49,114 nt of DNA from Nitrosotalea sp. (GTDB lineage Archaea > Thermoproteota > Nitrososphaeria > Nitrososphaerales > Nitrosopumilaceae). Within the stretch, counting starts at the first letter, position 1. Each line of letters starts with the position of its first letter. Both the position numbers and the translations under genes were made by a program. Positions 27,601-48,618 of the stretch are shown here, in pieces. The notes beneath the pieces were generated by a model, which was given only the letters and a program-made list of their open reading frames with translations, made no database searches and was not told the DNA's origin. The stretch is from contig JANWJG010000038.1 in the NCBI GenBank assembly GCA_025449485.1, forward strand, positions 1 through 49,114, written 5' to 3'.

Positions 27601-27883
27601 AATTGGGACAAAGAACTATACTGGATACATACCAATTAGCATACCGCCACCTGTCTACATGACACCGGCAATGGCATCTCCTGTAGCAACAAGTTCACTG
27701 CCCGTACCTACACAATCGCTCCCACCTTTGAAGATCTTCAATACAGGAGTATCTGTAAAAGATGTTGTTTGTAAGGATGGACTTGACTTGGTTGAAAAGA
27801 AAGAAGATGGTTCTCCAGCATGCATAACCCCACAAACCAAGTCTGTTCTACTTGACAGGGGATGGGCCAAACTAGTACAATAA
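24698..27883 (+). CDS. Large secreted protein with BNR/Asp-box (sialidase-like) repeats and C-terminal C...AC...RGWA module
   Basis: SIDSGTTFED, SIDGGRSFSS, STDGGKTFSSPINLSG; C-terminus VVCKDGLDLVEKKEDGSPACITPQTKSVLLDRGWAKL. Confidence 0.8.
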   Translation: MKELKHMPISLTPLHLKTPAHFLALMTVFLLLAVPVESSFAGPMMPSPLAGGPIQMPFVPSITQQQMVVSGTNVYLIWTASTSTGQNQIFFKRSIDSGTTFEDQISLGNVTNSQDTHMVASGNNVYVSWSSLFNNTSKVFVKYSSNGGINFQQVSPSVGDATLVSLIGLEAYGNTVQLLWTGSIGPNRTQVIALSQSHTGGSSFDSPLYLSDPNMSSGLPMISHTGSNTYVAWSSQGAHPCIQMYESCPSYHFFRPITDGTLGPIVTLDAFDGNIPIRMASDQNTVFVEGLKRVYQNGFFQNSVISMSKSIDGGRSFSSTSLNFDVNMADISLVISNGIVYQFWTVYDNGFAPQPISVEKSTDGGKTFSSPINLSGKTTPLGIDLSNQIVTSGGNVFVVWPGTDDAGASHVFFTKADSSNDIRIISDVSQPGLFNIGAQDSAVFVSYLDDGNMFFEKINDSNFVSTDFTCKTNQNISHESITMSTPQIFISDNPIQNILVGWKSQIKSTLQNLQDGDLNVVYQVQALKDGSTVWHVYENATLLCSKSLDAKINWSPQEPGNYTIQTSVINPVNQQVISSNSTTILVSENSDLQTFTNNASPVAFKVLNQTSQVNQEGFAKFLLQAGSSSPNYRLSTVNLSIDSPPGVQAWFDQYAIYSFDNSPQNLTMYVYADSGAKPDINSLKIQGKGSAQNLVTGEYFNIGNPIPPDEGSLQYPQSITSQQEGYTQIGTVDLNIVPIMPKPVTYLTVGPPYIHPEHFCTPPGSSVGQSCMGFVGYEEFPIKVYSDKVRTVTLDAKDFLSSGWYKFEPQELVATPQGTPSTLIVASVVKPFMINVLSNHVVKLYANSSDGNSFAYLPLTEGGNPIKVLNSTGPIEFGSLTTNINNTTPNSVGIVYDSNQSSTSLPVSFSVLGVVDGSKISQMPSWLSVDFLPSAFTLNSSKPYYFAIDITTVAPPVGSNTTVAIGEKIGTKNYTGYIPISIPPPVYMTPAMASPVATSSLPVPTQSLPPLKIFNTGVSVKDVVCKDGLDLVEKKEDGSPACITPQTKSVLLDRGWAKLVQ

Positions 27884-30286: not shown

Positions 30287-30436
30287 ACAAAAATGGACTT
30301 TTCATTAATACAAACCTGACTCAAAAATACGTAATATCTAGACATGTTATTTCTGTGCCATACTTACATAGTTTTATTGAATGTGTTTTATCCACACAAG
30401 GTATGGAATCTGAAAATATTATCTCTACGGGTAACC

Positions 30437-31036
30437 ATGATACAATATTTGGTCTGTTGTACTCAACTACTTGGAGTTGCACGTGACGTGGAAATATTGC
30501 GAAAAATATCTACTAACAGGCTCACTTTACGACTACAAAGTGATCTTTTAGAAATCCTCAAACAAAATGCACACAGAAAAGATCTGACATTGAATGCAAT
30601 GATATCTAATATCTTGCACAAAAATGTTGCGTACGACGAAACTGTAAACGTTTTACCAAACATGATTATTCCACATGATTTGTTTTTCTCCATTGTCTCC
30701 AAAATACCTGAATCAGATATGGGAGATGTTGTAAAGGAAGGACCACGTATTGTGAAAAAACATTTTGACATCCTGGGATTGCAATATAAAATTGATCATG
30801 TTATTTACAATTACTTTGTGATGCTTGCCAAGTATTGCAACTGGTTTGAATTCTCGCACAAGGTGTCTGGAAATAATTATCGACTAGTGTTTTGTACCGG
30901 AAATAATCCAAAGTGGTCAATATTTGTGCAACAATACATACATGCAATACTTGAATCATTGAAAATAATAATATCAAATGAATCACATCACGCAGGAGTT
31001 GTTGTCTTTGAATTTTCACACAAAGAATACATCTGA
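30437..31036 (+). CDS. Ribbon-helix-helix regulator with C-terminal ligand-like domain
   Basis: NRLTLRLQSDLLEILKQNAHRKDLTLNAMISNILHKNV; same architecture as 14327..14860; start chosen at internal ATG. Confidence 0.65.
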   Translation: MIQYLVCCTQLLGVARDVEILRKISTNRLTLRLQSDLLEILKQNAHRKDLTLNAMISNILHKNVAYDETVNVLPNMIIPHDLFFSIVSKIPESDMGDVVKEGPRIVKKHFDILGLQYKIDHVIYNYFVMLAKYCNWFEFSHKVSGNNYRLVFCTGNNPKWSIFVQQYIHAILESLKIIISNESHHAGVVVFEFSHKEYI

Positions 31037-31096: not shown

Positions 31097-31306
31097 ATGA
31101 TAGAACAAATTCATGAGAACACAAGCCATGAACGAAACATGCTAAATGGCAGCAAAATACACTCTACGATGGTTTTTTCCAAAGTCGTGTCATGCTGTAC
31201 TTGTGGTATGGAAATGAAATTTGTTGAAAACGATGTAATCTTTGGTGAGGATTGGTATCATGGTAACTGCTGGAAAGCGACACAGGAGAGAGAGCGAAAT
31301 GTTTGA
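31097..31306 (+). CDS. Small Cys/His zinc-binding-like protein
   Basis: CCTCGMEMKFVENDVIFGEDWYHGNCW; overlaps the next start by 8 nt. Confidence 0.55.
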   Translation: MIEQIHENTSHERNMLNGSKIHSTMVFSKVVSCCTCGMEMKFVENDVIFGEDWYHGNCWKATQERERNV

Positions 31307-32174
31307 AAAAACACACCATGAGAATTCGGGAAAAAAGATTCTCATCATAGGCCTCGGACAAATAGGTCACAGTAATGCTGAATACATGACATCTCTTGGA
31401 CTGCAAGTAGATGGCTTTGATATTAGCAAAGATGCAGTTGCAAGGGCCATAAAAGACAAGGTGATACAAAAAGGTGCCACAGATTTTCGTGGTTATGACT
31501 ATTATGTCATCTGTATCTCAACACACAAGCCAGAAGACATGTTTGTACCATATCTTGATGGGCTATTTGACATTGCAAAGCGACTTGCACATGAAGGCAA
31601 AATGGACGCACTTGTTGGAATTGATTCCACTGTAACAAGGGGCACAACACAAGAAATCAAAAAAATACTCGGTCACCGATTACATGTAGTACATGTACCG
31701 CACAGATTCTATGTCCATGAAAAAAGTGAACATGGAGTAAAGCAGGTCCGAGTGATTGGTGGATGTGAACCATGTTGTATGACTGAGGGGAAGCATTTCT
31801 ACGGCAACGTGCTAAAAATTCCGCTTCATCAAGTAAGTTCGCCAGATGTAGCAGAGCTCACCAAAGTTGTAGAGAATTCGTACAGATATCTTGAGATTGC
31901 ATTTGCAGAAGAGATCAAGATGGTCTGTGATAACACATCCCTTGACTTTGATGAACTCAGAGACGCAATTAACACAAAATGGAATATCAAAATCCTTGAC
32001 GCCAGGGATGGTATTGGAGGTCACTGTCTTCCAAAAGACAGTCAAATGTTTCTTGACTTTTCAAGAAACTCTGTAGTGACAAGTATGATACGAGCTGCGA
32101 AGATGGTGGATTCACAATACAGGTTCCACCTTATTCAAAAAGCTACCCAAGAAATACCTCTCGCAAGAGGTTGA
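31299..32174 (+). CDS. UDP-sugar dehydrogenase family protein lacking the C-terminal UDP-binding domain
   Basis: ILIIGLGQIGHSNAEYMTSLG, GIDSTVTRGTT, catalytic GIGGHCLPKD; ends about 35 aa after it. Confidence 0.85.
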   Translation: MFEKTHHENSGKKILIIGLGQIGHSNAEYMTSLGLQVDGFDISKDAVARAIKDKVIQKGATDFRGYDYYVICISTHKPEDMFVPYLDGLFDIAKRLAHEGKMDALVGIDSTVTRGTTQEIKKILGHRLHVVHVPHRFYVHEKSEHGVKQVRVIGGCEPCCMTEGKHFYGNVLKIPLHQVSSPDVAELTKVVENSYRYLEIAFAEEIKMVCDNTSLDFDELRDAINTKWNIKILDARDGIGGHCLPKDSQMFLDFSRNSVVTSMIRAAKMVDSQYRFHLIQKATQEIPLARG

Positions 32175-32180
32175 CATCAC

Positions 32181-32909
32181 ATGAAGATAGTACACGTGGG
32201 TGCGATAATCACTGGGATAGTAATCACGCTAGGCGTTTTATTGGTAGTGCCCGAATTCTTGCGTCCTAGTCCCACCCAACCAATCCTGCTCTCATTTAGT
32301 GTAACTAATGAACAAAATCTTCCTAACTGGTGTCATGATCTGTCATCTGTTTTATCAAAATATGATGTCAAGGCTGCAGTATTTGTAATTGGTAAAGTTG
32401 CAGAACGACACCCTGACTGTGTTAATGGGTTTTCAAATAATGTCGATATTGGTAGTGAATCCTATGACTATGTATCACTTCCATCAATTTCTGATTACGC
32501 TACACAGCTTCAAGAAGTACAAAACGGAAAAATAGCAGTTGACAAGGCTGGGAATTTAGATTCTAAATTATTCAAAGCGCCATATGGAGCAACAGATGCT
32601 AATATTTACTCTCTACTGAGTCGTTCAAACATTTTAGCAGATTTTTCCTATAACGAACAATACAACAAGTATTATAATGGAAAATTCATAAAGTTTGATC
32701 TAGTTACCTATAATGGCTCAAAATATTATACAGGTTTCTTTAGACATATTCCTGCAGACAAACTAGTCCTAGTAAATTTCGATAATTCAACACCTGTATC
32801 TAAGATTGATGAATTTATTTCAGAATTTAAATCTAAAAACTTTCGTTTTGTGAGTGCAACTGAATTAACTTCTATGGATCTGACAATACATGGAGCAAAT
32901 AGGACTTGA
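32181..32909 (+). CDS. Polysaccharide-deacetylase-fold (NodB-like) protein, probably inactive
   Basis: KYDVKAAVFVIGKVAERHP and FKAPYGATD retained; TFDDG replaced by SFSVTN; H..(S)..H replaced by GSESYDY. Confidence 0.6.
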   Translation: MKIVHVGAIITGIVITLGVLLVVPEFLRPSPTQPILLSFSVTNEQNLPNWCHDLSSVLSKYDVKAAVFVIGKVAERHPDCVNGFSNNVDIGSESYDYVSLPSISDYATQLQEVQNGKIAVDKAGNLDSKLFKAPYGATDANIYSLLSRSNILADFSYNEQYNKYYNGKFIKFDLVTYNGSKYYTGFFRHIPADKLVLVNFDNSTPVSKIDEFISEFKSKNFRFVSATELTSMDLTIHGANRT

Positions 32910-34336
32910 CTGTAGAATTACAAGAGAAACCGCGCTCTGATGTTAAAGTAATCGAGATTCCAAAATGCAATCAAAAGTTTGCACCAAGTGGAAGAATTCA
33001 AGTTCGTAAACTAGCATGGGTCCTGAGAATATGTAGCATCGTCGCAATTACAGGTGTGATAATATTTAATGTGATTAAAGGCGTAGATCTAAATGATCCT
33101 CTCATAGTATATTCTACTTTGATGCCGATACATGCCTTGATTATCTTGTTTATTGGATGGTTCTTTTACAAAAATCCTGCAAGGGGTGTGTCAAAAAATG
33201 ACCTAGTCTCGGTCATAATTCCGGTGTATAATCAACAAGCAATGATTGAGATAGTGATTGATGCAATTTACTGCTCTACTTACAAGAATCTCGAAGTAAT
33301 AGCAGTAAACGATGGAAGCAAGGATGGCACCAAAGAAATCCTGGATGATCTTGCAAGAAAATATCCTAAATTAAAAGTCATACATAAAGCAAATGAAGGA
33401 AAACGCAAGGCCGTTGCTGCTGGATTTTATGCCTCAACGGCAGACTATATCGTACTCATAGACTCTGACAGTGTCGTAGACCCACACGCAATCAAGGAAT
33501 TCATGAAAACGTTTGACGCAGATCCAAAAACGGGTGCAGTTGTAGGTTATGCAAGAGCATGGAATGCACAAAAAAGCTTTCTTACAAAATGTCAAGATGT
33601 ATGGTATGATTATGCATTTAATATTCACAAAACAACAGAAAGCGTTTTTGGAAGTGTGATGTGTTGTTCTGGTTGCCTAGCAGGATATAGACGTGAAGCA
33701 ATTGCCAACTTTATTCCATACTGGATAAAAGCAAGAATTCACAATAGTGACGATAGAGACCTTACTTCGTATGCAATAGCAACACCATGGGCAAAAACAG
33801 AGTTGGCTCCAATCTCAAAGAGGATGATGGAGGATACTGCAAATTATGATGATGCTGAAGATAGAATTCTAACTGCCCAAGCTATAGTGGAATGGAAAGC
33901 AACCTACGTTGCATCTGCTCTGGTCTATACTGATGTCCCTGAAAAAGTAAAAGGATATTTCAAACAACAAAAAAGATGGAAAAAGGGCTATGTCCGTTCT
34001 AATCTCTTTGTAAGTTCCTTTTTCTGGAAGAAAAATCCGTTAATGGCTTTGATTTTCTATACTGAATTTATGACGACTTTTACTTCGCCACTCATTGTAA
34101 TAATAGTATTATTCTACGAGCCTGTAATACTCCAGCAATATTGGGTTCCATCAATTTTTGTACTGGGTTCGTTACTTACGGGACTTTCTCACGGGTTGGA
34201 TTGTAAGTTCAGAAATAACCTTTCAACAACTTGGAAGTATAAGCCAATAATGAATCTTATCGCATCTTTTGTCTTGTCTTGGCTGATCTTTCCAGCCATT
34301 TGGAATTTTAGAAAAAATGAATGGCTCACAAGATAA
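32906..34336 (+). CDS. Processive GT2 polysaccharide synthase (hyaluronan/chitin/PNAG synthase-like)
   Basis: VSVIIPVYNQQAMIE, AVNDGSKDGT, DSDSVVD, QQKRW, multiple TMs. Confidence 0.9.
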   Translation: MTVELQEKPRSDVKVIEIPKCNQKFAPSGRIQVRKLAWVLRICSIVAITGVIIFNVIKGVDLNDPLIVYSTLMPIHALIILFIGWFFYKNPARGVSKNDLVSVIIPVYNQQAMIEIVIDAIYCSTYKNLEVIAVNDGSKDGTKEILDDLARKYPKLKVIHKANEGKRKAVAAGFYASTADYIVLIDSDSVVDPHAIKEFMKTFDADPKTGAVVGYARAWNAQKSFLTKCQDVWYDYAFNIHKTTESVFGSVMCCSGCLAGYRREAIANFIPYWIKARIHNSDDRDLTSYAIATPWAKTELAPISKRMMEDTANYDDAEDRILTAQAIVEWKATYVASALVYTDVPEKVKGYFKQQKRWKKGYVRSNLFVSSFFWKKNPLMALIFYTEFMTTFTSPLIVIIVLFYEPVILQQYWVPSIFVLGSLLTGLSHGLDCKFRNNLSTTWKYKPIMNLIASFVLSWLIFPAIWNFRKNEWLTR

Positions 34337-34370
34337 AATGACATCTCCTGTTGTATGGATTGGTGAGTAG

Positions 34371-35843
34371 ATGCTATTTAATTCTCTCCAGTTTATTGTT
34401 TTCTTTGTTGTAGTATTAGGCTCTGTTGCAATTATTAAAAAAAGAAAATTCCAACACTTGTTTTTGTTATTTGCAAGTTACTTTTTCTTTTATTATTCAA
34501 GCAATTATCTGATTACACTTTTAATTTATTCAACGCTTTTAGATTTCTACCTTGGAGGTGCAATTTACAAGTCCACTGATCCTCATCGAAGAAAAATGTT
34601 ACTAGTTTGTAGCATGGCTGGAAACTTGGGTCTTTTAGGATTTTTCAAATATGCAGACTTTGCAATTTCACAGTTTAATGCACTAGGCGTCCATCTAGGA
34701 CTTGGAAGCAACATTCCATTGTTAAATCTAGTTTTACCGATCGGAATTTCGTTTTATACATTTCATACCATGACCTATACGATAGATATCTATCGAGGAC
34801 ACCTTGTTCCAAGCAAAACCTTTAGGGAATTTGCACTGTTTGTCACATTCTTCCCGTCCCTAGTTGCTGGACCGATACTTCGTGCAAGCCAGATTCTGCC
34901 CCAGTTTAGGGAACAGATAGCCCAATCTGAAATGGGAACTAGACTGAAGCTAATTGTTCTTGAGAATTCCAATCTGAAATTTGGTGTAACCATGATGGCC
35001 ATGGGGTTTTTCAAAAAAATGTTCTTCAGTGACAATATTTCGCCCATGGTAAACGACATCTTCAACTATCCAATAGGTGCAGAATCGTTTACAATTATTC
35101 TTGCTACCATTGGCTTTGGCATCCAAATTTACTGTGATTTTTCCGGCTATTCTGACATTGCAATAGGCGCTGCAATGATCTTGGGATTTAAGATACCTGC
35201 CAATTTTAATAGGCCATATTTTGCAACATCGCCTTCTGATTTCTGGAGACGATGGCACATCTCACTGTCTTCTTGGTTGAGAGACTATCTCTACATTACA
35301 CTGGGAGGTAATCGTGTATCGAAGATCAGGACATATCTTAATCTGTTTATCACAATGTTCTTGGGAGGACTATGGCATGGTGCCTCCTGGAACTTTGTCA
35401 TCTGGGGTATGTTACACGGTTTGTATCTTGCTATGCATAAATTAATTCTGGATAGGGTTCCATCGCTGAAGGATAACAAGTTTTTCAAAACAAAAATTGG
35501 AATTGCAGTTTCTATATTCATCACACAATATCTGGTGTTCTTGACTTGGATTCCATTTAGGGTACAAGACTCCACTAATCTGACATACTCTATCTGGAAG
35601 TACATTGTGTGGGACTTTGCAATTGATAAAACAATAAATGTGATTTCATTAAACAAACTTCCAATTTTACTAATCATCGCTTTCATTGTTCTACACTATG
35701 TGTCATACAAAAAGAATAATTTGATAGAAACAATTTCTGGTTTGAAATTACGTTACTGGGCAATGTTTCTTGTTGCAATAACATTTTCAATTTTAATTCT
35801 TTATGATGGAAAACCGGAGGATTTCATCTATTTCAGATTTTAG
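34371..35843 (+). CDS. MBOAT O-acyltransferase (AlgI/DltB-like)
   Basis: FWRRWHISLSSWLRDYLYI, GGLWHGASWNFVIWGMLHG. Confidence 0.93.
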   Translation: MLFNSLQFIVFFVVVLGSVAIIKKRKFQHLFLLFASYFFFYYSSNYLITLLIYSTLLDFYLGGAIYKSTDPHRRKMLLVCSMAGNLGLLGFFKYADFAISQFNALGVHLGLGSNIPLLNLVLPIGISFYTFHTMTYTIDIYRGHLVPSKTFREFALFVTFFPSLVAGPILRASQILPQFREQIAQSEMGTRLKLIVLENSNLKFGVTMMAMGFFKKMFFSDNISPMVNDIFNYPIGAESFTIILATIGFGIQIYCDFSGYSDIAIGAAMILGFKIPANFNRPYFATSPSDFWRRWHISLSSWLRDYLYITLGGNRVSKIRTYLNLFITMFLGGLWHGASWNFVIWGMLHGLYLAMHKLILDRVPSLKDNKFFKTKIGIAVSIFITQYLVFLTWIPFRVQDSTNLTYSIWKYIVWDFAIDKTINVISLNKLPILLIIAFIVLHYVSYKKNNLIETISGLKLRYWAMFLVAITFSILILYDGKPEDFIYFRF

Positions 35844-35854
35844 GAGATTATGAT

Positions 35855-38746
35855 ATGAACAATGCTATAAAAACAAGTATCGCCGCGTCCATTGCTCTAC
35901 TTGTATCTTTTACAATGCTTTTTGCCTATCTTACATATGGTGCGGCAAATCCTGTTGACGTCAGCAATGAGAAATTCTCTTTTGCAGGAGCTGATTCTGG
36001 AGAAAAAAGAGTCTTCCTCTTGGGCTCTAGTTATGTTGAGCGACTAAATTCATCGTACATCAAACAATATCTCTCAGAGAATGGTTTGCAACAATTTCAG
36101 GTCTATAATATAGCAAAAAATGGCGCTGGTAACCCCTCACAACAAATTCAGTATCTAGAACCCATGGTTTCAGCTCATCCTACCGTTATTGTATATGGGC
36201 TAGGTTTTCGTGAATTAGGATACAAGCCGTATACAAATAATGCTCCTAGTTGTGCCCCAGGTGGGTCTATGCCTCTTGAAGGTAACACCACGAATACAGC
36301 ATTTAGCACTCCGTCAGTTCAAGATGCTGCATCATACTTGCAAAAGATAATTCCTGTAAAGACTGACTATTTCTCAAACCTTGCTGACCCAAAACATGTC
36401 ACAGTTGACTTACTAAAATCATATTTTGAAGAAAATATTACATCTAATACTGAAGTAAATGCTGTTGCCAGTAACGAAAACAATTCTACACTTGGTATAT
36501 TGAATGAAAATTTTGTTGAAAAAAGGGATCCGCAGTTTATCAACATTAGAAGTCTTGATGAAATAAACAAACCGCTGGACTATACAGTTCACGTATGCCC
36601 TGATGACATGACCAATGAATTGACAAAATTAAGTGAAATGATATCTACATTGAAGAAAAATAATATCAATGTGATATTGTTTGTTCCGCCATTTTCTCAA
36701 AGTTATCTGAATGCTGTTGGCGATGATGGAATACACACATTCCTATCTACACTGGGTACATTTGCTAGTGAAAATAATTTAAAATTATATGATCTTCATG
36801 ACAAGTATGTTACTCTAAACATATGGGCTGATGCACAACATGTTGCTCAAAACCCAAAGGTGGTAATTTACAGTGATGATATCGCAAAAATTGTTCTAGG
36901 CGAATTACATTCCTATACAAATATGCGAACTGTTGACACAAGTGCCGCGAACTTGAGTTACAAAGATCTTTCTTATGCTGATTTAAGATCTGTGAATTTG
37001 TCAGGAAAGAACATGACTGGAACTATTCTCATATATTCTAATTTGTACGGTGCAAACATGACTGATACAATTCTCAAAGATGCAAATCTTGGGCATGCGT
37101 ATATGCATAATTTGGATTTGTCTGGAGAAGATTTGACTGGTACAGTCCTCACAGGTGCCGATTTGACAAATGCAGACCTTGCCGACGTTGAACTCTCCGG
37201 CAAGGACCTCACTGGAACAAACCTTAGTGGGGTTAACATGTCAGACAAGGATCTGAATGGAACAATCCTTGTAGGGACTAATCTAGTCAATGCCAATCTG
37301 AAAGATGTGGACCTGTCACACAAGGATCTCACTGGAGCTAACCTTGCTGGCGATAACCTGTCAGGCCAAGATTTCACCGGAACAATTCTTGCAGGGGCCA
37401 ATTTGGATTACACAAATCTTCATGATGTTGATCTGGTAGGCAAAAATCTGACTGGTACTAGTCTCAAGGGAGTCTACTTGGCAGATAAAGATCTAACGGG
37501 TGCACTCCTCATAGGATCTAATCTAGCTTACGCAAATCTTAGTGGTGTTGATCTAACAGGAAAAAATATGACAGGAGCATTTCTGTTTAGAACCAATTTG
37601 CAGAATGCTGATCTAGCTAATGCGGATCTAACAGGTGACAACTTACGAAAGACGATATTGATTGGAGCCAATCTAAATAATGCCAAACTTCGTAATTCAG
37701 ACTTGTCTGGTAATACTCTGACTAGAACAGAACTTGTTGGTGCAGACTTGAGTAATGCCGTTCTGCCTGGTGTAAATTTTGCAGGCAAGGATCTGACTGG
37801 AACAATCCTTGTAGGGACTAATCTAGTCAATGCCAACTTTACAGGAGTTGATCTGTCTGGCAAGGACTTTACTGGAAGCAATCTTAGGGGAACGCATCTT
37901 GACTATGCGATTCTATCTGGTGTAAATCTTGGAATGAAAAATCTGACAGGTACTACACTAGAAGGATCTGATCTGACAAAAGCCGTGTTGTGGAAAGCAA
38001 AACTTGTAGATGCGAATCTGATCGGTGCAGATCTGTCTCACAGTGATCTACGTAATGCCCTGATTAAAGGCTCTAACTTGACTAATGCAAATCTATCTGG
38101 CGCCAATCTATCTGGAGCTAATCTGTCAGGCGATGACCTAACCGGGACCATCCTTGTGGGGGCTAATTTGGCAAATGCTACTATGACTGGAATAGATATG
38201 TCAAAGGCAATAACTGATCCTTCTAAAATTAAATCAACGTCTGTCTCTCATGCATTGCCTCATGTTATAATAATGTCAAATTTCCAAACCACGACTGGCT
38301 GGATAAAACAGTCGTCTAGCGGAAACCAGTCATATGACCATACTGATTTCATAAATGGTTCACAAAGTCTGAAACTTGTTACTGCTGGAAATGGCTCACC
38401 CATAGTTACTCATAGTAATATTTTCTCACACGCTTTTGATCTGAGTCACTATGTTACAAGTGCATGGATTAAAGTAGACAATTCATCCAAAGTAAAAGAA
38501 TTCTGGATATATCTCTCAAGTGATGGTTTGAAATCATCTTGGTATACATACAAGATTACAATTCCAAATCATGTCAAGTCTGGAGAGTGGACAAAGATTT
38601 CAATTGATCCAAAACAATTTGTTGTTAATGGTACCCCGGACATATCTGCAATAAACAGAATTCAAATAAGAATTAACGATGATTCTACAGGACCAGTCAC
38701 TTTACACATTAATGAAATATTGGCACAAAAGGAGATATCCAAATGA
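35855..38746 (+). CDS. SGNH-hydrolase-like domain + long pentapeptide-repeat solenoid + C-terminal CBM-like jelly roll
   Basis: FLLGSSYVERLNSSYI (GxS block), IWADAQHV (DxxH block), then A(N/D)LXX repeats from about aa 365 to 790, then a carbohydrate-binding-like region. Confidence 0.85.
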   Translation: MNNAIKTSIAASIALLVSFTMLFAYLTYGAANPVDVSNEKFSFAGADSGEKRVFLLGSSYVERLNSSYIKQYLSENGLQQFQVYNIAKNGAGNPSQQIQYLEPMVSAHPTVIVYGLGFRELGYKPYTNNAPSCAPGGSMPLEGNTTNTAFSTPSVQDAASYLQKIIPVKTDYFSNLADPKHVTVDLLKSYFEENITSNTEVNAVASNENNSTLGILNENFVEKRDPQFINIRSLDEINKPLDYTVHVCPDDMTNELTKLSEMISTLKKNNINVILFVPPFSQSYLNAVGDDGIHTFLSTLGTFASENNLKLYDLHDKYVTLNIWADAQHVAQNPKVVIYSDDIAKIVLGELHSYTNMRTVDTSAANLSYKDLSYADLRSVNLSGKNMTGTILIYSNLYGANMTDTILKDANLGHAYMHNLDLSGEDLTGTVLTGADLTNADLADVELSGKDLTGTNLSGVNMSDKDLNGTILVGTNLVNANLKDVDLSHKDLTGANLAGDNLSGQDFTGTILAGANLDYTNLHDVDLVGKNLTGTSLKGVYLADKDLTGALLIGSNLAYANLSGVDLTGKNMTGAFLFRTNLQNADLANADLTGDNLRKTILIGANLNNAKLRNSDLSGNTLTRTELVGADLSNAVLPGVNFAGKDLTGTILVGTNLVNANFTGVDLSGKDFTGSNLRGTHLDYAILSGVNLGMKNLTGTTLEGSDLTKAVLWKAKLVDANLIGADLSHSDLRNALIKGSNLTNANLSGANLSGANLSGDDLTGTILVGANLANATMTGIDMSKAITDPSKIKSTSVSHALPHVIIMSNFQTTTGWIKQSSSGNQSYDHTDFINGSQSLKLVTAGNGSPIVTHSNIFSHAFDLSHYVTSAWIKVDNSSKVKEFWIYLSSDGLKSSWYTYKITIPNHVKSGEWTKISIDPKQFVVNGTPDISAINRIQIRINDDSTGPVTLHINEILAQKEISK

Positions 38747-38796
38747 AAAACTTTTGTGATAACGAAACTTGGAAGATGGGATGCAGATAGTATAAA

Positions 38797-39744
38797 ATGA
38801 TATTTCTAAAATTATTTTTATTTCTTGTCTTGTCGATGATCCTTATACCTGCTTATCCTGTCTTGGCATATTCTAAGACGTCTTGTCAATGTGTCTCGTT
38901 TAGGCTTGATGATATTCAGGATTATTGGTTAGACAGTGTTCAAACAAAAATAATTGATACATTTCATCAAAAAAATGCAAGTCTGACAATTGGGATAATC
39001 GGGAATCATATAGGACAAGATTTCAAACTAGTGCATGATGTAAAAACGAAACTAGGGAAGACTCCGGCATTAGAAATAGCAAACCATGGTTGGAATCATG
39101 AGGATTTTACCCAGTTTAGCAGAGAACAACAAGGTGTGCTAATGAAAAATACTAACGAGAAGATATCTAAATTGTTTGGAGTTACTCCTTCTTCATTTAT
39201 TCCTCCTTTTGATACGATTAACTCTAATACCATGATAGCATTTTTTGAAAATAACTTCAAGTATGTTTCAGCTGATGTTTCCCAAGATAATCCGTCTGTT
39301 TTTACTAAAAATACCCAAGTTTATCATGTGCCAGGAACCGGACAGATAAGTAATCTCACTGGCAATGATAATGTTTGGCTTCATTATGATAACCAACACG
39401 TTCTTGTAAAAATAATGTCAGATATCCAAAAATATGGATACTCTATGGTAATACTCCACCCTCCGGAATTTGCACAAAGGACACAATCTCATTATACTAA
39501 CGATGTGAATACAACTCAAATTAAAAATCTTGGACTGCTAATTGACAGCATAAAAAAGAGTGATATAAAAATAGTAACTATGGATCAGATTCCATCTAAT
39601 ATGCAAAGTAAATCATATCCTGGTTGGTTGGGTAATGTTTTCATGTGGAATGAAAAAGGAATAATTTCTGACAAACAGGTTTTGTCTAATGTCAATTACT
39701 TGATTGACAAGAAAGTTATTACTTCATCTGCGGTATTCAAATAA
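38797..39744 (+). CDS. Secreted NodB-type polysaccharide deacetylase
   Basis: SCQCVSFRLDDIQ, NHGWNHED, FIPPFD, ILHPPEF; signal peptide. Confidence 0.85.
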   Translation: MIFLKLFLFLVLSMILIPAYPVLAYSKTSCQCVSFRLDDIQDYWLDSVQTKIIDTFHQKNASLTIGIIGNHIGQDFKLVHDVKTKLGKTPALEIANHGWNHEDFTQFSREQQGVLMKNTNEKISKLFGVTPSSFIPPFDTINSNTMIAFFENNFKYVSADVSQDNPSVFTKNTQVYHVPGTGQISNLTGNDNVWLHYDNQHVLVKIMSDIQKYGYSMVILHPPEFAQRTQSHYTNDVNTTQIKNLGLLIDSIKKSDIKIVTMDQIPSNMQSKSYPGWLGNVFMWNEKGIISDKQVLSNVNYLIDKKVITSSAVFK

Positions 39745-39877
39745 AACAAAACCGAACTGATTAATTGTATTTAAGACTTGTTCATTTTTGTAACTGAACA
39801 AAGTTACACAAGGTACTAAATTAACGAATTAAAACTATTTTTGGGTGTGAGTGTGTTGATTATATACGCGAGTAAAA

Positions 39878-40930
39878 ATGACCATTGTTAAATTTAAAAC
39901 TAGAAATGCGCGAATCAAAGCTAATGTACAATTCCTAGCTTTATCTGCAATTCTTCTATTATTGTTTAATTGTGGTTCTTATTTGGCCTCAATTGGTGCC
40001 AACGCGCAAGTGGAAAATACTATCGGATCTGGCACATTTTCAAGTACACAAGGTTCCTGCAAGTGTGTAGTCTTCAGATTAGATGATGTAAACAGCAATT
40101 TTCTGACAAAAGTACAGCTGAACATAATGGATCAATTCATTTCACAAAACCAAAGCATCTCACTGGGACTCATAATGCATAGAATAGACCCAACATCTAC
40201 AGTAGTTGAAAAAGTTAAAGAGGGAAAACAGAAGGGCTTGTTTGAATTGGACCTTCATGGTTGGGACCATGTTGATTATTCACAGTTGAGCAAAGAAGAA
40301 CAGCTTGGAACACTACAGCAAGCTAGCGACAAGATGAATACAATCTTTGGTCAGCGCTCCCAAATCTTCATACCTCCATATAACAAATTTAATGGTGATA
40401 CAATTGGAGTTTTACAATCTATTGGAGTTAGAATATTTAGTTCTGATACCTCTGCTGATAAGAATCCGTATTTTATAGCAAATGGAATGAATGAAGGCAG
40501 GTCTAATATGATTCTGTATCATCTTCCAGCCATGACTAGTTTCAAAAATGATAATGGGAATGGTACGTGGATAAAAGTTCCTATACAGACAATCTTGAAT
40601 GATGTGGATGATAGCGTAAACAGATATGGCTATGCGGTGGTTTTACTACATCCTCAGAATTTTGCAAAGATGGAAAATAAAATATTTGTTGATACTGTGG
40701 ATGAAAATGAAATTAAAGATTTATCACTCTTGATATCCCAGATAAAATCTGAACATCTAAAAATTACAACATTTGCAAATGTAGTAGGACTACAAATATC
40801 TACTTCACCACATGTACAACTAGCTCCTGAATTTTCTGGAACAGCGGCAATTGTATTGGTGGCATCAATATTGTTAATTGTTGGATTTTCAGTTGTGAGA
40901 AAAAATAATCTTGTTAGGCATAGAATCTGA
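39878..40930 (+). CDS. Secreted/anchored NodB-type polysaccharide deacetylase
   Basis: SCKCVVFRLDDVN, LHGWDHVD, FIPPYNKF, LLHPQNF; C-terminal TM. Confidence 0.85.
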   Translation: MTIVKFKTRNARIKANVQFLALSAILLLLFNCGSYLASIGANAQVENTIGSGTFSSTQGSCKCVVFRLDDVNSNFLTKVQLNIMDQFISQNQSISLGLIMHRIDPTSTVVEKVKEGKQKGLFELDLHGWDHVDYSQLSKEEQLGTLQQASDKMNTIFGQRSQIFIPPYNKFNGDTIGVLQSIGVRIFSSDTSADKNPYFIANGMNEGRSNMILYHLPAMTSFKNDNGNGTWIKVPIQTILNDVDDSVNRYGYAVVLLHPQNFAKMENKIFVDTVDENEIKDLSLLISQIKSEHLKITTFANVVGLQISTSPHVQLAPEFSGTAAIVLVASILLIVGFSVVRKNNLVRHRI

Positions 40931-41024
40931 TACCTAGAGTATATTGGACTCGTAAGTTGTCTCACTATTTTTCTACGCGTGTTGTTGTGTAAAAATACAA
41001 CATGTGGCAACCTTGAAACAAAAA

Positions 41025-42422
41025 TTAGGAAATTGGGGGATTGATCTCTCTTATGCTTAATTTTTTAAAATCAAATTCTGCATTGTCTGCCCTGAATTGC
41101 TGCTCTGTACCTCCCCAAGATATTATGTCATTATTATTCATTGAAGCACCAGTTGTGATATTCTTGCATCCATATTTTGAAGGATCACCTGGAACTTGCC
41201 AACCGGAATCTATTTGTTCAAATACCTTGTGCCAGTTATTGTCATCCTGATCATCTATCCATATCTCAAATTTTACTGCGGTGTTGTTTTTGATGTTATA
41301 TGTCATGGTCTTCATACCAATCCAACGATCGTTTAACGGAGTTGTAATTCCACTAGTGGCAAATGTTTCTGAATAGCTTGATTTGTCTCCTGCATGGTAA
41401 AGAGATTTTTGAACTTCTGCATTTCCATCATAGGTTATGCTTGAATAATATGAATATCCTTGGCAAATTGAGACGTGCGGACTACCGCTTCTCGTCACAT
41501 GGGTAAACTCTTGAGGATAATGAGTACTGTTCTGCAATCTGTAATAGCCGGTCATCTCAGTGTTCAACCAAAGTGTGTTTGGCGGTGAATTCACTACTAG
41601 TCTCACTCCTTCATTCTCTGGCACGTCGATTCTTTTTGCATGCCATGAATCATCTGTAGGGTTTTTGTAAAGTTGCATGCATATTGTTGGATCGTTACAG
41701 ATTGCATTTGAGTCAGGGCCGGTGTAAAATATTGTGTCATTTAACGGATCATTTGAATTCATGTACCACTGTGGTCCATCTTTTTCTGTTGGATAGATCT
41801 CCTTGACACCAAAAATGTCATCTGATTCACTTACTGGTGGTATGTAGATTGTGGCAGAGTCCCTATTGTAACTGATATTGGCCCTGAATCCTTGGCTTGT
41901 ATAGTTATTTGATTTTGTATCAATGTGGTACCTGTAATAGCCATCAGGTTGCATGCTCGTGACTGGTATGCTGTCAGTCTTGTATAATGTTCCATTGGAA
42001 AAGAAAATCTGGGCCTGTAGTGAGGGTGATCCATCTCCATTGGGGTGTATTTTCACATCTATATCGTGGGAATCAATCACAGTTCCATTTCTATATGTGG
42101 CATTACGATAGTTTTGTTCCAAAAACCCGCTAATTGTTAATGTTATATTTTTTGCCCATCCTCGTTCAAGTAACATGTTGATTGTTTCCAGTTTTACACA
42201 TGCAGGAGAGTTATCTCTAGTTTTGATGACTAGCTGAAGATTTCCTTGACAAACAACAATGTTTGCAGAAATTCCTGAATTGTATTGTTCTAGTGGGTTC
42301 TTGGTTATGAGCCATTTTGGGATCAAAAGACGCAAGTCACCAGTTTCATTTTGTCCAAAAACGTTGGGTATGATAATTGATACTGTAACAATAAAAATTA
42401 TTGAAAGATATGGTACTCTCAA
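41025..42422 (-). CDS. Secreted protein with C...AC...RGWA module and concanavalin-like (polysaccharide lyase/lectin-type) domain
   Basis: VVCQGNLQLVIKTRDNSPACVKLETINMLLERGWAKN; WLNTEMTGYYRLQ...DRWIGMKTMTYNIKNNTAVKFEIWIDD. Confidence 0.65.
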   Translation of the reverse strand: MRVPYLSIIFIVTVSIIIPNVFGQNETGDLRLLIPKWLITKNPLEQYNSGISANIVVCQGNLQLVIKTRDNSPACVKLETINMLLERGWAKNITLTISGFLEQNYRNATYRNGTVIDSHDIDVKIHPNGDGSPSLQAQIFFSNGTLYKTDSIPVTSMQPDGYYRYHIDTKSNNYTSQGFRANISYNRDSATIYIPPVSESDDIFGVKEIYPTEKDGPQWYMNSNDPLNDTIFYTGPDSNAICNDPTICMQLYKNPTDDSWHAKRIDVPENEGVRLVVNSPPNTLWLNTEMTGYYRLQNSTHYPQEFTHVTRSGSPHVSICQGYSYYSSITYDGNAEVQKSLYHAGDKSSYSETFATSGITTPLNDRWIGMKTMTYNIKNNTAVKFEIWIDDQDDNNWHKVFEQIDSGWQVPGDPSKYGCKNITTGASMNNNDIISWGGTEQQFRADNAEFDFKKLSIREINPPIS

Positions 42423-42444
42423 ATAATTATGGTTTACTTCATAG

Positions 42445-42462
42445 TTTAAAAAATTGGCGTAT
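42445..42462 (-). promoter_or_regulatory. Promoter core shared with secreted-protein cassettes
   Basis: gtttaaaaaattggcgta versus gtttaaaaaattggtgta at 13268; located upstream of 41025..42422. Confidence 0.45.
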
Positions 42463-42514
42463 CTTACATGTATAACAAAGTCTTATTGATTGACAAAGTA
42501 CGGTACCTTAATTT

Positions 42515-42551
42515 TGACACCATCTGACACAACTAGCCTCCAAATACCTAT
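42515..42551 (+). promoter_or_regulatory. TGACAC-N4-TGACACAA ... CCAAATACCTAT promoter element
   Basis: Same arrangement as 31034..31070; 33 nt upstream of ATG 42584. Confidence 0.6.
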
Positions 42552-42583
42552 CAACTATTCTTCAAGATAAAAAAATCACAGAG

Positions 42584-44554
42584 ATGAATGAAATCCACTA
42601 TGGTAGAATACATCATACACCATCATTGCTAGTATTTTCTATTTTTACATTACTTCTAATATTCTCTGTAATGCAACCTGCATTGGCAGTTTCATATGGA
42701 AGTTATGGTGCTAGCGCAAACACCAAGTCCGTGGTAACAACACTTCCCATCACACCCAAGCCTGTAACCGTGAATGCTGTATCCACGACAAATACTGTTT
42801 CCGGCAAAAACACCTGTCCTTGCATCGTGTTCAGGTTAGATGATGTACGAGGATCATACTTGCCTGATATTCAAATGAAGATCATGGATGTATTTCAAAA
42901 GAAAAATGCAAGTCTCAGTATTGGAATTACTGGTTATAATCTCACCCAAGATGGTAAACTAGTCTCATATCTACAAAACAATCTCAAACCCGGGCATACG
43001 GCTATCGAGATGGCAAATCATGGTTGGAGACACGAGGACTTTGCTACCTTGGGCTTATCACAACAGGTCACCTTGATGAATAAAACTAATCAAGAATTAA
43101 ACAAGATATTTGGAAAAAAACCAAATGCGTTTTTTGTACCATATGGCATGTATGATAATGATACCCTAAAGGTAATAAAACAACTAAAAATGAACGTAAT
43201 CAGCTCTAGTATATGGAGCGAGGACAAATTTGTTTTAGCCCAGGGAAAAATAACTGCAAATAAAGATTCGCTAGGACTCTACCACATCCCATCAATGACT
43301 GAATTCCAATCTGATACTGGAAATGAGACATATTGGACAAATATTCCAAAAGACAGAGTAATTGATAGTATTAATTCTCATATCACAAAATACGGTTATG
43401 ATGTATTTTTAATACATCCACAGAATTTTGCAACACTTGTAAATGGTCAATACGTCAACACTGCTGATACAACACATCTTGATGAACTTGCAAGTATAAT
43501 CGACTATGTCAAGTCAAAACATATCCACATATTGACAATTTCTGAAATTGCAGGGCTTGATCGTGCAAGTATCACACCAACTGTAAAACCTGTTGCAACT
43601 ACTTCAAAACCTGTCAGCACAATCCCTGTTTCAAAACCGTCATCTGACGTTGACGTTTCCAACTCCTCAATAGATTCCACAGAACAACCACGAGTTGTAA
43701 AATATGTAGAGCCAAATGGCTCATTGACAATGAATGTACAATATCCTAGCAATGATCCTGCTAATGCTCAAATGCTGTCAATGAAAATCTATCGAGATTT
43801 TGATACCAAGCCCTACCTAGAATTACCAACTGTATCTGAAAATCCTTACACTGTAACACTTCCAATGTACCATCAATACAAAATACAGACATTTGTCAAT
43901 AGTATGCTCTCAAGTGTGATCTTGACCACGCTTGATACTCTACATCAAAATATGGATGTCAATATTCCATGGGGTGGAACCATACTTGTTTCTGTATATT
44001 ACCATGACGGGCAAACACCAGTTTCTGGTGCTAACATATCCATAAGATCTCAAGATAATAAAACACGGGCAATTGGAGTTACTGATTCTGATGGGTCAGC
44101 AACCAGATTTTCACTTCCATCCACAATTGTTGACGGTAATTACTATGTAGTAGATGTAAAGATAAACAGTCACCTGGTTTTCTCATCTGACCCTGTGACG
44201 TTGGCACCTGAAAATATTAATAAAATCAAACTGGTTGCGCCTTGGCCTTCGATGCTAGAAAATCTAATCACCGTCAAAGTATACAATCAAACCAAAGTCT
44301 TGCCCTCAAATGGACAGACGTATGCAGTTCAAATGTATGATGATCAAGGAAACAAACTATCTGAGTCCCCAGTTAACATACATGGTGAAGGTTATTTCTG
44401 GTCTATGCAAGTAGGTGATTATGTCTTCAAAGTTGTAAAGACTAGTAATGATACAGTGCTAGGTGACAAGTTTGTCACAGTGGATGGTACCAAAAACAAC
44501 TTTGATTTGACAATTCAAAACCATGTATCTACAACAAAACCGGTCTTGAACTAA
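42584..44554 (+). CDS. Secreted NodB-type polysaccharide deacetylase with C-terminal carboxypeptidase-regulatory/Ig-like domains
   Basis: TCPCIVFRLDDVR, NHGWRHED, FFVPYGMYD, LIHPQNF; GQTPVSGANISIRSQDNKTRAIGVTDSDGSA. Confidence 0.85.
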   Translation: MNEIHYGRIHHTPSLLVFSIFTLLLIFSVMQPALAVSYGSYGASANTKSVVTTLPITPKPVTVNAVSTTNTVSGKNTCPCIVFRLDDVRGSYLPDIQMKIMDVFQKKNASLSIGITGYNLTQDGKLVSYLQNNLKPGHTAIEMANHGWRHEDFATLGLSQQVTLMNKTNQELNKIFGKKPNAFFVPYGMYDNDTLKVIKQLKMNVISSSIWSEDKFVLAQGKITANKDSLGLYHIPSMTEFQSDTGNETYWTNIPKDRVIDSINSHITKYGYDVFLIHPQNFATLVNGQYVNTADTTHLDELASIIDYVKSKHIHILTISEIAGLDRASITPTVKPVATTSKPVSTIPVSKPSSDVDVSNSSIDSTEQPRVVKYVEPNGSLTMNVQYPSNDPANAQMLSMKIYRDFDTKPYLELPTVSENPYTVTLPMYHQYKIQTFVNSMLSSVILTTLDTLHQNMDVNIPWGGTILVSVYYHDGQTPVSGANISIRSQDNKTRAIGVTDSDGSATRFSLPSTIVDGNYYVVDVKINSHLVFSSDPVTLAPENINKIKLVAPWPSMLENLITVKVYNQTKVLPSNGQTYAVQMYDDQGNKLSESPVNIHGEGYFWSMQVGDYVFKVVKTSNDTVLGDKFVTVDGTKNNFDLTIQNHVSTTKPVLN

Positions 44555-45627: not shown

Positions 45628-48618
45628 CTATCTTGATATGCTATGAGTTAATTTGTCATGAATCTGTGCTAGAATAAGTTCTGCCTTTTCCTTGTTCTCA
45701 AATGTCTCTGCCTTTTCATCCATGATTGCATCAATTTCATAACTCTTGTCAACCAAAACATTTGCAACATGGTCATCAAGAGTTCCATTACCCATTAGAT
45801 AGTACGCAAATACCGTGTTCTTTTGTCCAATTCGGTGTAGCCTATCTTCTGCCTGTCTGTGTATTGCAGGACTCCAGTCAAGTTCTGCAAATATTACATA
45901 ACGTGCTTTGCTCAAGTTTATGCCAACGTTTCCAGCTCGAAGGCCTGCAATGATTAACTTGGTTTCACCATTTTGGAATCTGTCTATTCCATTTTGTCTT
46001 TCCTTGTCACTTTGTCCGCCTATGATTGATGCTGGAGAATACTCTGAAAGACTTCGGTGGAGTAATTCATGAATTGCCTTGTGATGGCAAAATACTACAA
46101 CACTCTCTTCAATTTCCATGATGTTTTTGACAAATTCTATGACATGGGGAACCTTTGCAACACCTGCTGCCTGTCTTTCACTTTGTATTGCTCTCTTGTA
46201 TGAAGAGAACTTGTCAAATGCACTTGTTGCACTTTTTTGTTCTTCTTCCAATCTTTCCCAAATCTTTCCAAGCTCTGTTTGGTAATAATTGATATCAGAA
46301 TCAATGAGCTCCTTGTATCTAACCTTGTCTTTTAGCTCTTTTAGAACATCAGATTTTTTTCGTCTCAGCATGACATGCTTTCGTAACTCTTCTCCTAAAC
46401 TTGCACGCTTGTTTTCAAGAACAATTGCTTTTCCTTTTTCGTTTACATAACAGAAATATTCACAAAATTCTTCAAATGTTCCCAGAAGACCTGGTCTTAG
46501 TATGTCTACAATTGGCCATATCTCTGAACCCCTGTTGTAAATTGGTGTTCCGGATAGTCCAACTCGATATTTTACAGAATCAAGTGCGGCAAGTTTTTTC
46601 ACCGCTGTGTATTTTTTAGTAGTCTTTGATCTGAGATGCTGTACTTCATCACAGACAAGTGTCTTGATGTTTAGTTTTGCGATATCGTCCATTCTTTTGT
46701 GCAATAAATCGTAATTTATGATGTAGACGTCATATTTCCCAAGTTCTTGGGCTTTGCCTGTTCTTATGAGAACTGATGATGGATACTCATTTTCTACAAT
46801 TTTTCCATTGCGACTACGTTTTTTGAGGAATTTCTGAGTTTCTCTTTGCCAGTTGTTAAGCGTTACAAGTGGAGCTACAATTAGTACTGGAAATGTCTGT
46901 TTCTCTGTTGCAAGATATGCCAGAGTCTGGACTGTATTGTGGGTTATGATTCCATTTGCGATATAGTTGTGTGTTTCAGGTACTGATAAATCGTAAACAT
47001 GGCCACGAAATAGTTTTTCTTCTACTGATTTGATTTGACACCAATTGATTGATTCTAAAGATATCTCACGTAATTGTTGTGCTAACTCATGATGCGTGGT
47101 CTCTAACTTATTTGAGACATGCAGCGCAAGTTGTTTACTCATGCCTTGGGTGTATTTGTATGGTGTGTACAAGTTGAGAGAACGCAACGATACTCCGGAC
47201 TCTGCAATCTTTCGAACAATTTTTTGTGTTGGTACACCTTCGATGTTTGTATTGTGTTTTTTCTGTGCTAGTTTTTCTAATGCACGCTGTTTGTATGATG
47301 TTAATAGTTGAAACTGTCCCACAAATCTTTCTATTGAATTACCGCCAAAAGTGCATGTATAGTACGTTCTTCGTATTCTTGTGCCATTTGCTGCATATTT
47401 TTTGGCAGTCCTGATGCGAAGCCATATCCCAAAGTGACGGAAAATTTCGCCTAATGCTAGTGCAATAGATTTACTTGCAGTGGTTATCTCACAATGTGTT
47501 TTACCCACATGGCCTTCAGAATCAAATATGGCCTGCACAAATACTTTTTGCACTTCCAAAGGAGCTTCAATTATTGCACGTGGAACTTTCTTGTCTTTTG
47601 ATCTTCTCCCCCATTCGTATCCCCATTTTGAGAATAATTGGTAAAATTGAGTTGTAGCAATGACTTGACTTGTTCTTTCTTTTCTTGGTTTTGGAAGAAT
47701 TATTCCTTGCTGTCTTGCTAATTTTTGTACTCTTGCAAGTATCTTTGGATCTGAATTGTAAAATCTTCCATGGGGATATTTTTCATTCTCAACATATTCA
47801 TAACCTTCTGCAATCTGCCATGCCATCAACTCTGCAATATCTTGTGTAAGTGCGCCTTTTCCATCGTGTATTGTTTTTGAGGACACTGCAACTTTATCCT
47901 CTGTGCTTAGCTCACCTGCTCTTTTCCATCCGTCTGGAGTGAGAAATCTATGACGCTTGGTGCATTCTATCTCTGAACCGTCTTTGAGAATTATTCTTGT
48001 TATGGACTCGTTAATTTTCTGTCTAAATATTCTGTTTACTTGTTTTATTGTTATGTTTTTTCCATCAAAAGTTTGTATGTTTATGGGAGTTTTCAGTTTG
48101 GCCCATTCTTCGTTTTTGTCGTGTTCCATAATTTCTGCCTGTTTCCAGATTTCTTTGATTGTGGTACTTCCGTTTGTTGTATTGATCAACGTGTCGCCCT
48201 TCAGACATTTACCCAAACCCATTTCGTCTGCTAGCAATGCGTTGCCATATGACTTTAGTAAAAAGTCAAGACCCTCTCTCTGAAAATCAAGTAGGTTGCC
48301 GCGGAACTGCGGTCCGGGACTTGCCTTTCGGAGTTTTTCTATTCGTGTCCATTTTTTTTGTGGAACAATGACTTTGCGAACTTTTCTATGCCATATTGAT
48401 TTTGATCTTATCTCCAGTGGATACCTATCCATTATCCATTTTATCTTCTCTACATTTTGGACCGTGTCTGGTACAATGGCCTCTTCTGGACCATTACCAT
48501 ACCATGCATGCGGTATGACACGGGCTACCATACTTACTGCTCTGGGGCCGGTCAGTTTCCAAGTCCAATTCTTTGAGTATGTGTCCAAAACATATTCAAG
48601 GGTGCCAAATTCTTTCAT
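45628..48618 (-). CDS. SNF2-family helicase/ATPase containing an intein
   Basis: Exteins LLADEMGLGK / TVQTLAYLATEKQ, DEVQHLRS, LSGTPIYNR, RLHRIGQ; intein CLKGDTLI...NGIITHN. Confidence 0.95.
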   Translation of the reverse strand: MKEFGTLEYVLDTYSKNWTWKLTGPRAVSMVARVIPHAWYGNGPEEAIVPDTVQNVEKIKWIMDRYPLEIRSKSIWHRKVRKVIVPQKKWTRIEKLRKASPGPQFRGNLLDFQREGLDFLLKSYGNALLADEMGLGKCLKGDTLINTTNGSTTIKEIWKQAEIMEHDKNEEWAKLKTPINIQTFDGKNITIKQVNRIFRQKINESITRIILKDGSEIECTKRHRFLTPDGWKRAGELSTEDKVAVSSKTIHDGKGALTQDIAELMAWQIAEGYEYVENEKYPHGRFYNSDPKILARVQKLARQQGIILPKPRKERTSQVIATTQFYQLFSKWGYEWGRRSKDKKVPRAIIEAPLEVQKVFVQAIFDSEGHVGKTHCEITTASKSIALALGEIFRHFGIWLRIRTAKKYAANGTRIRRTYYTCTFGGNSIERFVGQFQLLTSYKQRALEKLAQKKHNTNIEGVPTQKIVRKIAESGVSLRSLNLYTPYKYTQGMSKQLALHVSNKLETTHHELAQQLREISLESINWCQIKSVEEKLFRGHVYDLSVPETHNYIANGIITHNTVQTLAYLATEKQTFPVLIVAPLVTLNNWQRETQKFLKKRSRNGKIVENEYPSSVLIRTGKAQELGKYDVYIINYDLLHKRMDDIAKLNIKTLVCDEVQHLRSKTTKKYTAVKKLAALDSVKYRVGLSGTPIYNRGSEIWPIVDILRPGLLGTFEEFCEYFCYVNEKGKAIVLENKRASLGEELRKHVMLRRKKSDVLKELKDKVRYKELIDSDINYYQTELGKIWERLEEEQKSATSAFDKFSSYKRAIQSERQAAGVAKVPHVIEFVKNIMEIEESVVVFCHHKAIHELLHRSLSEYSPASIIGGQSDKERQNGIDRFQNGETKLIIAGLRAGNVGINLSKARYVIFAELDWSPAIHRQAEDRLHRIGQKNTVFAYYLMGNGTLDDHVANVLVDKSYEIDAIMDEKAETFENKEKAELILAQIHDKLTHSISR
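46936..48207 (-). mobile_element. Intein (424 aa) with LAGLIDADG-type endonuclease, in the Walker A lysine/threonine junction
   Basis: Begins CLKGDTLINTTNG, ends NYIANGIITHN then T; DOD-like blocks LMAWQIAEGY and VQAIFDSEGHV. Confidence 0.93.

Follow-up and report, generated by a model that had tools for sequence, protein, structure and literature searches.

What kind of surface polymer, if any, is produced by the gene cluster carried on a 49,114-nt contig of the soil-dwelling ammonia oxidiser Nitrosotalea sp. (hereafter the window; contig C38 of a 1.49 Mb assembly, 85% complete)? In the window, a plus-strand run of genes encodes, in order, a dehydrogenase-like protein (DH), a NodB-like protein (NodB0), a membrane glycosyltransferase (GT2), an O-acyltransferase (MBOAT), an SGNH protein with pentapeptide repeats (SGNHpp) and two further NodB proteins (NodB1 and NodB2); a minus-strand gene for a secreted protein and a gene for another deacetylase, NodB3, follow (Table 1). 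Ammonia-oxidizing archaea (AOA) are known to possess glycosyltransferases and exported polysaccharide deacetylases, some of them surface-induced in N. viennensis (PMC11561398, PMC12448741, PMC4836417). Their extracellular polysaccharide (EPS) is visible by microscopy (PMC12448741), although its chemistry is essentially unknown. With moderate confidence, we propose that the cluster directs polymer synthesis of the hyaluronan synthase (HAS) type, followed by de-N-acetylation and, in one Nitrosotalea clade, by an added O-acylation, all acting on one polymer.

A conserved triad in archaea and Chloroflexi

In a first-pass annotation of this DNA, the run was described as an exopolysaccharide system in which GT2 and NodB deacetylases of the poly-N-acetylglucosamine (PNAG)/chitosan type are combined with an MBOAT–SGNH pair of the alginate/cellulose type. 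All the genes that it named were found in the window, tightly packed. The gaps between them, from the open reading frame (ORF) coordinates, are 6 nt for DH/NodB0, a 4-nt overlap for NodB0/GT2, and then 34 (GT2/MBOAT), 11 (MBOAT/SGNHpp), 50 (SGNHpp/NodB1) and 133 nt (NodB1/NodB2). Gene order, singled out beforehand as a point on which that proposal depended, is conserved in relatives: synteny is kept in four other genomes of the Nitrosotalea clade, two of them interrupted by contig ends, and the gene order is retained in Nitrosotalea sp. FS and in isolate t3.48. Compared with two relatives, all cluster genes are under purifying selection (dN/dS 0.014-0.221). Since dN/dS is low for every gene and the order is kept in these two strains, the cluster is not a chance assembly.

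We surveyed 300 genomes of the class, 37 Nitrosotalea genomes, a set of named genomes and 36 related cassette GT2 loci. A cassette-type GT2 (at least 45% identity) was detected in 17 of the 300 class genomes, which belong to families f1, f3 and f5, and is a fragment in one of them; the scan of named genomes gave matches in Nitrosotalea, Nitrosarchaeum, Nitrosopumilus, Nitrososphaera, Bathyarchaeota and Chloroflexi. NodB0 lies directly 5' of GT2 in 31 of the 36 cassettes and the full triad DH, NodB0 and GT2 is present in 27, three of the exceptions being limited by contig ends. Full triads span Nitrososphaerota, Bathyarchaeota and Chloroflexi, and 24 of the 27 DH-bearing cassettes have a shortened archaeal DH, whose catalytic Cys is retained in those aligned. 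An active-type NodB occurs within 6.5 kb in half of the cassettes (18/36). The widely conserved unit is thus a shortened NDP-sugar dehydrogenase with a dead NodB and GT2, and not GT2 with MBOAT. The membrane-embedded, processive-type GT2, the linked de-N-acetylases, the MBOAT–SGNH pair and the conserved order agree with the polysaccharide interpretation of the first-pass annotation; its core, however, has to be redrawn as this triad.

The cassette GT2s form one clade with maximal support (100/100), in which the window GT2 groups with Candidatus Nitrosotalea and the Chloroflexi sequences are nested inside Bathyarchaeota. We considered archaeal contamination as the origin of the Chloroflexi contigs; this is unlikely, the GC content being even (0.53-0.59 along each contig) and in agreement with the GC given in two bin names. 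Three Chloroflexi contigs share a run of glmS, full-length NDP-sugar dehydrogenase, NodB0 and GT2, in this order, the dehydrogenase being best matched by the TviB-like model (308-324 bits, under the cut-off), and at one archaeal locus glmS directly follows GT2. With glmS and an NDP-sugar dehydrogenase in cassettes, the synthase is therefore linked to the provision of amino sugars in Archaea as well as Bacteria, and to that of uronate in Chloroflexi. This points to an amino-sugar polymer as the likely product, perhaps one that includes uronic acid. At three loci of Nitrososphaera-type genomes, two cassette GT2 genes stand in tandem.

The synthase resembles hyaluronan synthase

The catalytic motifs expected of the window GT2 (DGS, DSD and QQKRW) are all present, as D136, D186xD188 and QQxRW, together with SDDRxLT. 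DxD, DDRxLT and QxxRW are invariant among 23 homologues, and an insert with a second, DDAEDR-type motif is invariant inside the cassette clade and not outside it. In the AlphaFold model (pLDDT 83, pTM 0.84) the catalytic domain is flanked on either side by transmembrane-type helices, as a membrane channel, on which the first-pass proposal depended, would require. The best match of the model, over the full length, is class I HAS (Foldseek E 1e-19 to 1e-16; template modelling score 0.63-0.69 over 450-500 columns; about 17-20% identity in the structural alignment), ahead of BcsA and chitin synthases; this comparison is one-sided, because no PgaC or NodC structure was among the PDB matches. At the profile level, the similarity to HAS comprises several stretches, beginning in the catalytic core and reaching the W-TR motif of the C-terminus; CSG/YR and DDRxLT are among them, the first DDRxLT of GT2 being aligned with GDDRHLT of HAS.

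One could instead envisage a PNAG- or chitin-type homopolymer, for which GT2 would use UDP-GlcNAc only, as PgaC and NodC do, the NodB proteins would partly de-N-acetylate the chain as PgaB and IcaB do, and DH would be a leftover or act elsewhere. Indeed, PgaC (TIGR03937) is the top named NCBIfam family for GT2 (156.8 bits, cut-off 422), E. coli PgaC is 32% identical over 303 columns and NodC 25%, the order NodB0–GT2 is that of nodB–nodC, and linkage to glmS would also suit a GlcNAc homopolymer. However, the likeness to PgaC is confined to the catalytic core whereas the match to HAS is full-length, and DH stands beside the synthase in most cassettes, with a full-length NDP-sugar dehydrogenase at that place in Chloroflexi. 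We therefore regard a homopolymer as doubtful. The PNAG/chitosan label of the first-pass annotation stands in so far as PgaC is the nearest named family; by sequence and model, the architecture of GT2 appears nearer to hyaluronan synthase than to PgaC, and the substrate is not readable from this likeness.

GT2 might also be non-processive and contribute to a short or protein-linked glycan, such as an S-layer glycan, on which the NodB proteins would act; other surface-glycan clusters of Nitrosotalea have been so interpreted (PMC4836417). The HAS-type transmembrane architecture with QxxRW argues against this, as does the fact that no oligosaccharyltransferase or flippase was recognised within the run, and we consider such a glycan very unlikely.

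A dead deacetylase next to the synthase

In all 16 NodB0 homologues aligned, with an additional alignment to rhizobial NodB, the DD motif, both His ligands (HxxxH) and the LHD motif are lost, and KAPYG or a close variant is retained. By its sequence NodB0 is therefore inactive, as had been suspected. With a dN/dS of 0.05-0.07 it is among the more constrained genes of the cluster. NodB1, NodB2 and NodB3, in contrast, have retained Asp and the two His as ligands (FRLDD and HGWxH motifs), score above the Pfam cut-off and are predicted to be CE4-type deacetylases, in line with the two deacetylases and the third one downstream that had been annotated. The NodB3 of isolate t3.48 (locus L038, 1-1146) is devoid of both metal-binding His.

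A dehydrogenase without the UDP-binding domain

The run had been taken to begin at 31097. An ORF does open at that position; it encodes a small zinc-ribbon-like protein, and DH itself most likely starts at the ATG at 31299. The segment equivalent to this ORF forms the N-terminus of DH at two Nitrosarchaeum loci, and a similar ORF is found 5' of DH at seven other distinct scanned loci, all from Nitrosotalea or other AOA.

DH scores 134.9 bits against the NDP-sugar dehydrogenase model TIGR03026, under the cut-off of 189.8. The catalytic Cys (GGHCLPKD) and K..EN of the central domain are conserved, PER is replaced by PHR (Glu by His), and the C-terminal UDP-binding domain is absent from every archaeal member aligned. 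No separate gene for such a domain follows DH, NodB0 being the next gene. Because this domain is absent, the identity of DH as a UDP-sugar dehydrogenase is uncertain. At two Nitrososphaeraceae loci, a gene for a shortened DH, about 44% identical, is located no more than 6-7 kb from a GT2 of another, more distantly related HAS-like subfamily.

These features allow a more specific proposal, which we put forward only tentatively: archaea would have a distinct synthase complex, which Chloroflexi probably received by transfer. The dead deacetylase would be an obligatory, polymer-guiding subunit of its HAS-like synthase, and the two-domain DH would oxidise not a UDP-sugar but either a sugar bound to lipid or the polymer chain. 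The product would be a glycosaminoglycan-like heteropolymer, O-acylated in Nitrosotalea.

An O-acylation module acquired by one Nitrosotalea clade

MBOAT is well above the gathering cut-off of PF03062 (117.9 bits, cut-off 27). Its nearest named relatives, and those of SGNHpp, are DltB and DltD, so that the earlier assignment of the pair to the alginate/cellulose type (AlgI/AlgJ, WssH/WssI) is not upheld: MBOAT scores 149.5 bits against DltB (TIGR04091; under the equivalog cut-off of 375) and matches DltB in the PDB at 3.6e-26. As MBOAT and the SGNH domain score best against DltB and DltD, D-alanylation was considered and was rejected, no D-alanine ligase DltA scoring over the cut-off in five genomes (70-95% complete). 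The Ser (GxS) and His (IW....H) of the SGNH domain are conserved across the MBOAT-linked SGNH proteins; the window copy also has the Asp of DxxH, which is not conserved throughout.

MBOAT was found in 21 of the 300 class genomes and in 5 of the 37 Nitrosotalea genomes. All five have the cassette, and their GT2s group in a single clade, the sister of which is devoid of MBOAT. The MBOAT–SGNH pair is a recent addition, which joined the cassette only in one Nitrosotalea clade.

Does this pair act on the product of GT2, or is it a mere neighbour of the cassette that acylates a different glycan of the cell surface, of the S-layer or bound to lipid, which is its probable role elsewhere in AOA? In many Nitrosopumilaceae, an MBOAT paired with a short SGNH protein occurs without this GT2, away from the cassette; the triad is present without MBOAT in most genomes; and the genome studied here itself carries a second MBOAT with a short SGNH partner outside the cassette, on contig C58 (locus L026, 396-3070). 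However, in every cluster-bearing contig spanning the site the pair lies between GT2 and NodB1. In addition, SGNHpp ends in a C-terminal domain that recurs, at 33-42% identity, in the large NodB encoded next to the synthase or in its vicinity in Nitrosarchaeum, Nitrosopumilus and genome G112. Sharing of this domain between SGNHpp and the cassette NodB means that O-acylation probably takes place on the same polymer, and a bystander role of the pair seems to us unlikely. A similar relation links NodB3, the Ig-like end of which shows 25-33% identity with the N-terminal part of the large cassette NodB in these organisms. Domains have thus been exchanged between deacetylase and O-acylation proteins; we take this as the best evidence for one shared target polymer, which would also be the simplest reading. 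We do not adopt carbohydrate-binding module (CBM) as a family name for the end of SGNHpp, since its PDB matches are weak; the shared domain is stronger evidence than any family name.

Proposed pathway and relation to known systems

For HAS-type synthesis with modification of a single polymer, the following pathway can be proposed. GT2 would polymerise nucleotide sugars in the cytoplasm and export the chain through its own membrane channel, so that no outer-membrane porin would be needed. An amino sugar would be part of the chain, perhaps along with a uronic acid, and DH would supply or modify an oxidised sugar. The membrane-anchored NodB0, translationally coupled to GT2, may hold or guide the emerging chain, and outside the cell NodB1-3 would remove N-acetyl groups from part of it. 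In the MBOAT-bearing clade, an acyl group, most probably acetyl, would be carried through the membrane by MBOAT and handed to SGNHpp; the latter would bind the polymer by its CBM-like end and O-acylate it.

Several points weigh against this pathway. Nitrosotalea genomes are mostly devoid of the cassette. Between the DHs of archaea and those of Chloroflexi, identity reaches only about 20-25%, and the Chloroflexi enzyme may therefore not stand in for the archaeal one. The uncertain identity of DH, the first rank of PgaC among named families, the one-sided structural comparison and the MBOAT–SGNH pairs located elsewhere in AOA count on the same side.

Class I hyaluronan synthase operons contain hasA and hasB. 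The cassette resembles them in having a single membrane GT2 expected to make and export the chain, an adjoining NDP-sugar dehydrogenase and, in Chloroflexi and one archaeon, an adjoining glmS; it differs by the archaeal DH lacking the UDP-binding domain, the dead NodB between DH and GT2, the added deacetylases and O-acylation pair, the DDAEDR insert and the low identity of the synthases. With pgaABCD and icaADBC it shares the linkage of a GT2, close to PgaC in its core, to a NodB-type deacetylase, but the run has neither PgaA nor PgaD, a dehydrogenase is present, the adjacent NodB0 is inactive and the archaeal GT2 is far under the PgaC cut-off. As in rhizobial nodBC, a NodB protein stands directly 5' of GT2, whereas the archaeal one is dead and membrane-anchored and no Nod-factor genes are nearby. 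The O-acylation pair has the MBOAT and membrane-anchored SGNH protein with Ser and His of DltB/DltD, AlgI/AlgJ, WssH/WssI and PatA/PatB; unlike these it is archaeal, and SGNHpp is extended by a long stretch of pentapeptide repeats and ends in a CBM-like domain.

HAS-type synthesis, O-acylation and de-N-acetylation are known processes, and the unusual conserved parts are the pseudo-deacetylase and the two-domain dehydrogenase. In the open-access literature searched, including work on AOA EPS genes (PMC11561398, PMC12448741, PMC4836417), neither the triad nor a HAS-type synthase from archaea nor the added O-acyl module was found to be described. With its few genes, the cassette would be a portable and testable basis for studying a glycosaminoglycan-like polymer of archaea, one that a single clade may tune by O-acylation. 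Its two odd proteins, the synthase-tied pseudo-deacetylase and the dehydrogenase without nucleotide-binding domain, are open to direct functional tests.

Gene layout and neighbouring features

Table 1. Coordinates of the cluster genes and adjoining features in the window
Feature	Position	Strand	Remarks
CopG/RHH-like gene	30344..31036	+	directly upstream of the cassette; same position in several relatives
Zinc-ribbon-like ORF, 69 aa, CxxC...HxxC	31097..31306	+	8-nt overlap with DH start
DH, two-domain NDP-sugar dehydrogenase-like, 291 aa	31299..32174	+	NAD-binding and central domains
NodB0, membrane-anchored pseudo-deacetylase	32181..32909	+	metal ligands lost, KAPYG kept
GT2, hyaluronan-synthase-like synthase	32906..34336	+	N- and C-terminal transmembrane helices, catalytic motifs
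MBOAT O-acyltransferase	34371..35843	+	PF03062 7.8e-34
SGNHpp	35855..38746	+	N-terminal transmembrane segment, SGNH/DltD-like domain, pentapeptide-repeat region, C-terminal CBM-like domain
NodB1, secreted, predicted CE4-type deacetylase	38797..39744	+	full metal triad
NodB2, membrane-anchored, predicted CE4-type deacetylase	39878..40930	+	full metal triad; weak C-terminal PEFG-CTERM-like match
Secreted WING-49 protein with C-terminal concanavalin-like (lectin/lyase fold) domain	41025..42422	-	fold comparison
NodB3, secreted predicted deacetylase with C-terminal Ig-like domains	42584..44554	+	metal triad kept

The CopG/RHH-like gene upstream may encode a regulator of the cassette; a second CopG/RHH-like protein is encoded in the window at 14327-14860.

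The secreted lectin- or lyase-like protein annotated downstream is indeed present, on the minus strand. It gave no Pfam match and no sequence match in the PDB. The model of its C-terminal domain (pLDDT 83.5, pTM 0.85) has a concanavalin-type fold, with weak matches (template modelling score about 0.4) to lectins, the alginate lyase vAL-1 and glucuronan lyase; at this level of similarity we did not adopt the name lyase. The full-length protein is found only in the five MBOAT genomes, and matches, mostly to the WING-49 segment, occur in 31 of the 37 Nitrosotalea genomes. In five Nitrososphaeraceae genomes, homologues of the lectin/lyase-like domain are encoded next to a GT2 that is HAS-like, which agrees with the HAS-type reading of the cluster.

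Segments like WING-49 are found repeatedly among the secreted proteins of Nitrosotalea; the window has them at 18631-20004, 24698-27883 and in the protein described above. Finally, an SNF2-type helicase ORF on the minus strand (45628-48618) has, from its translation only, an apparent intein at the Walker A site (GLGK|C...HN|T).

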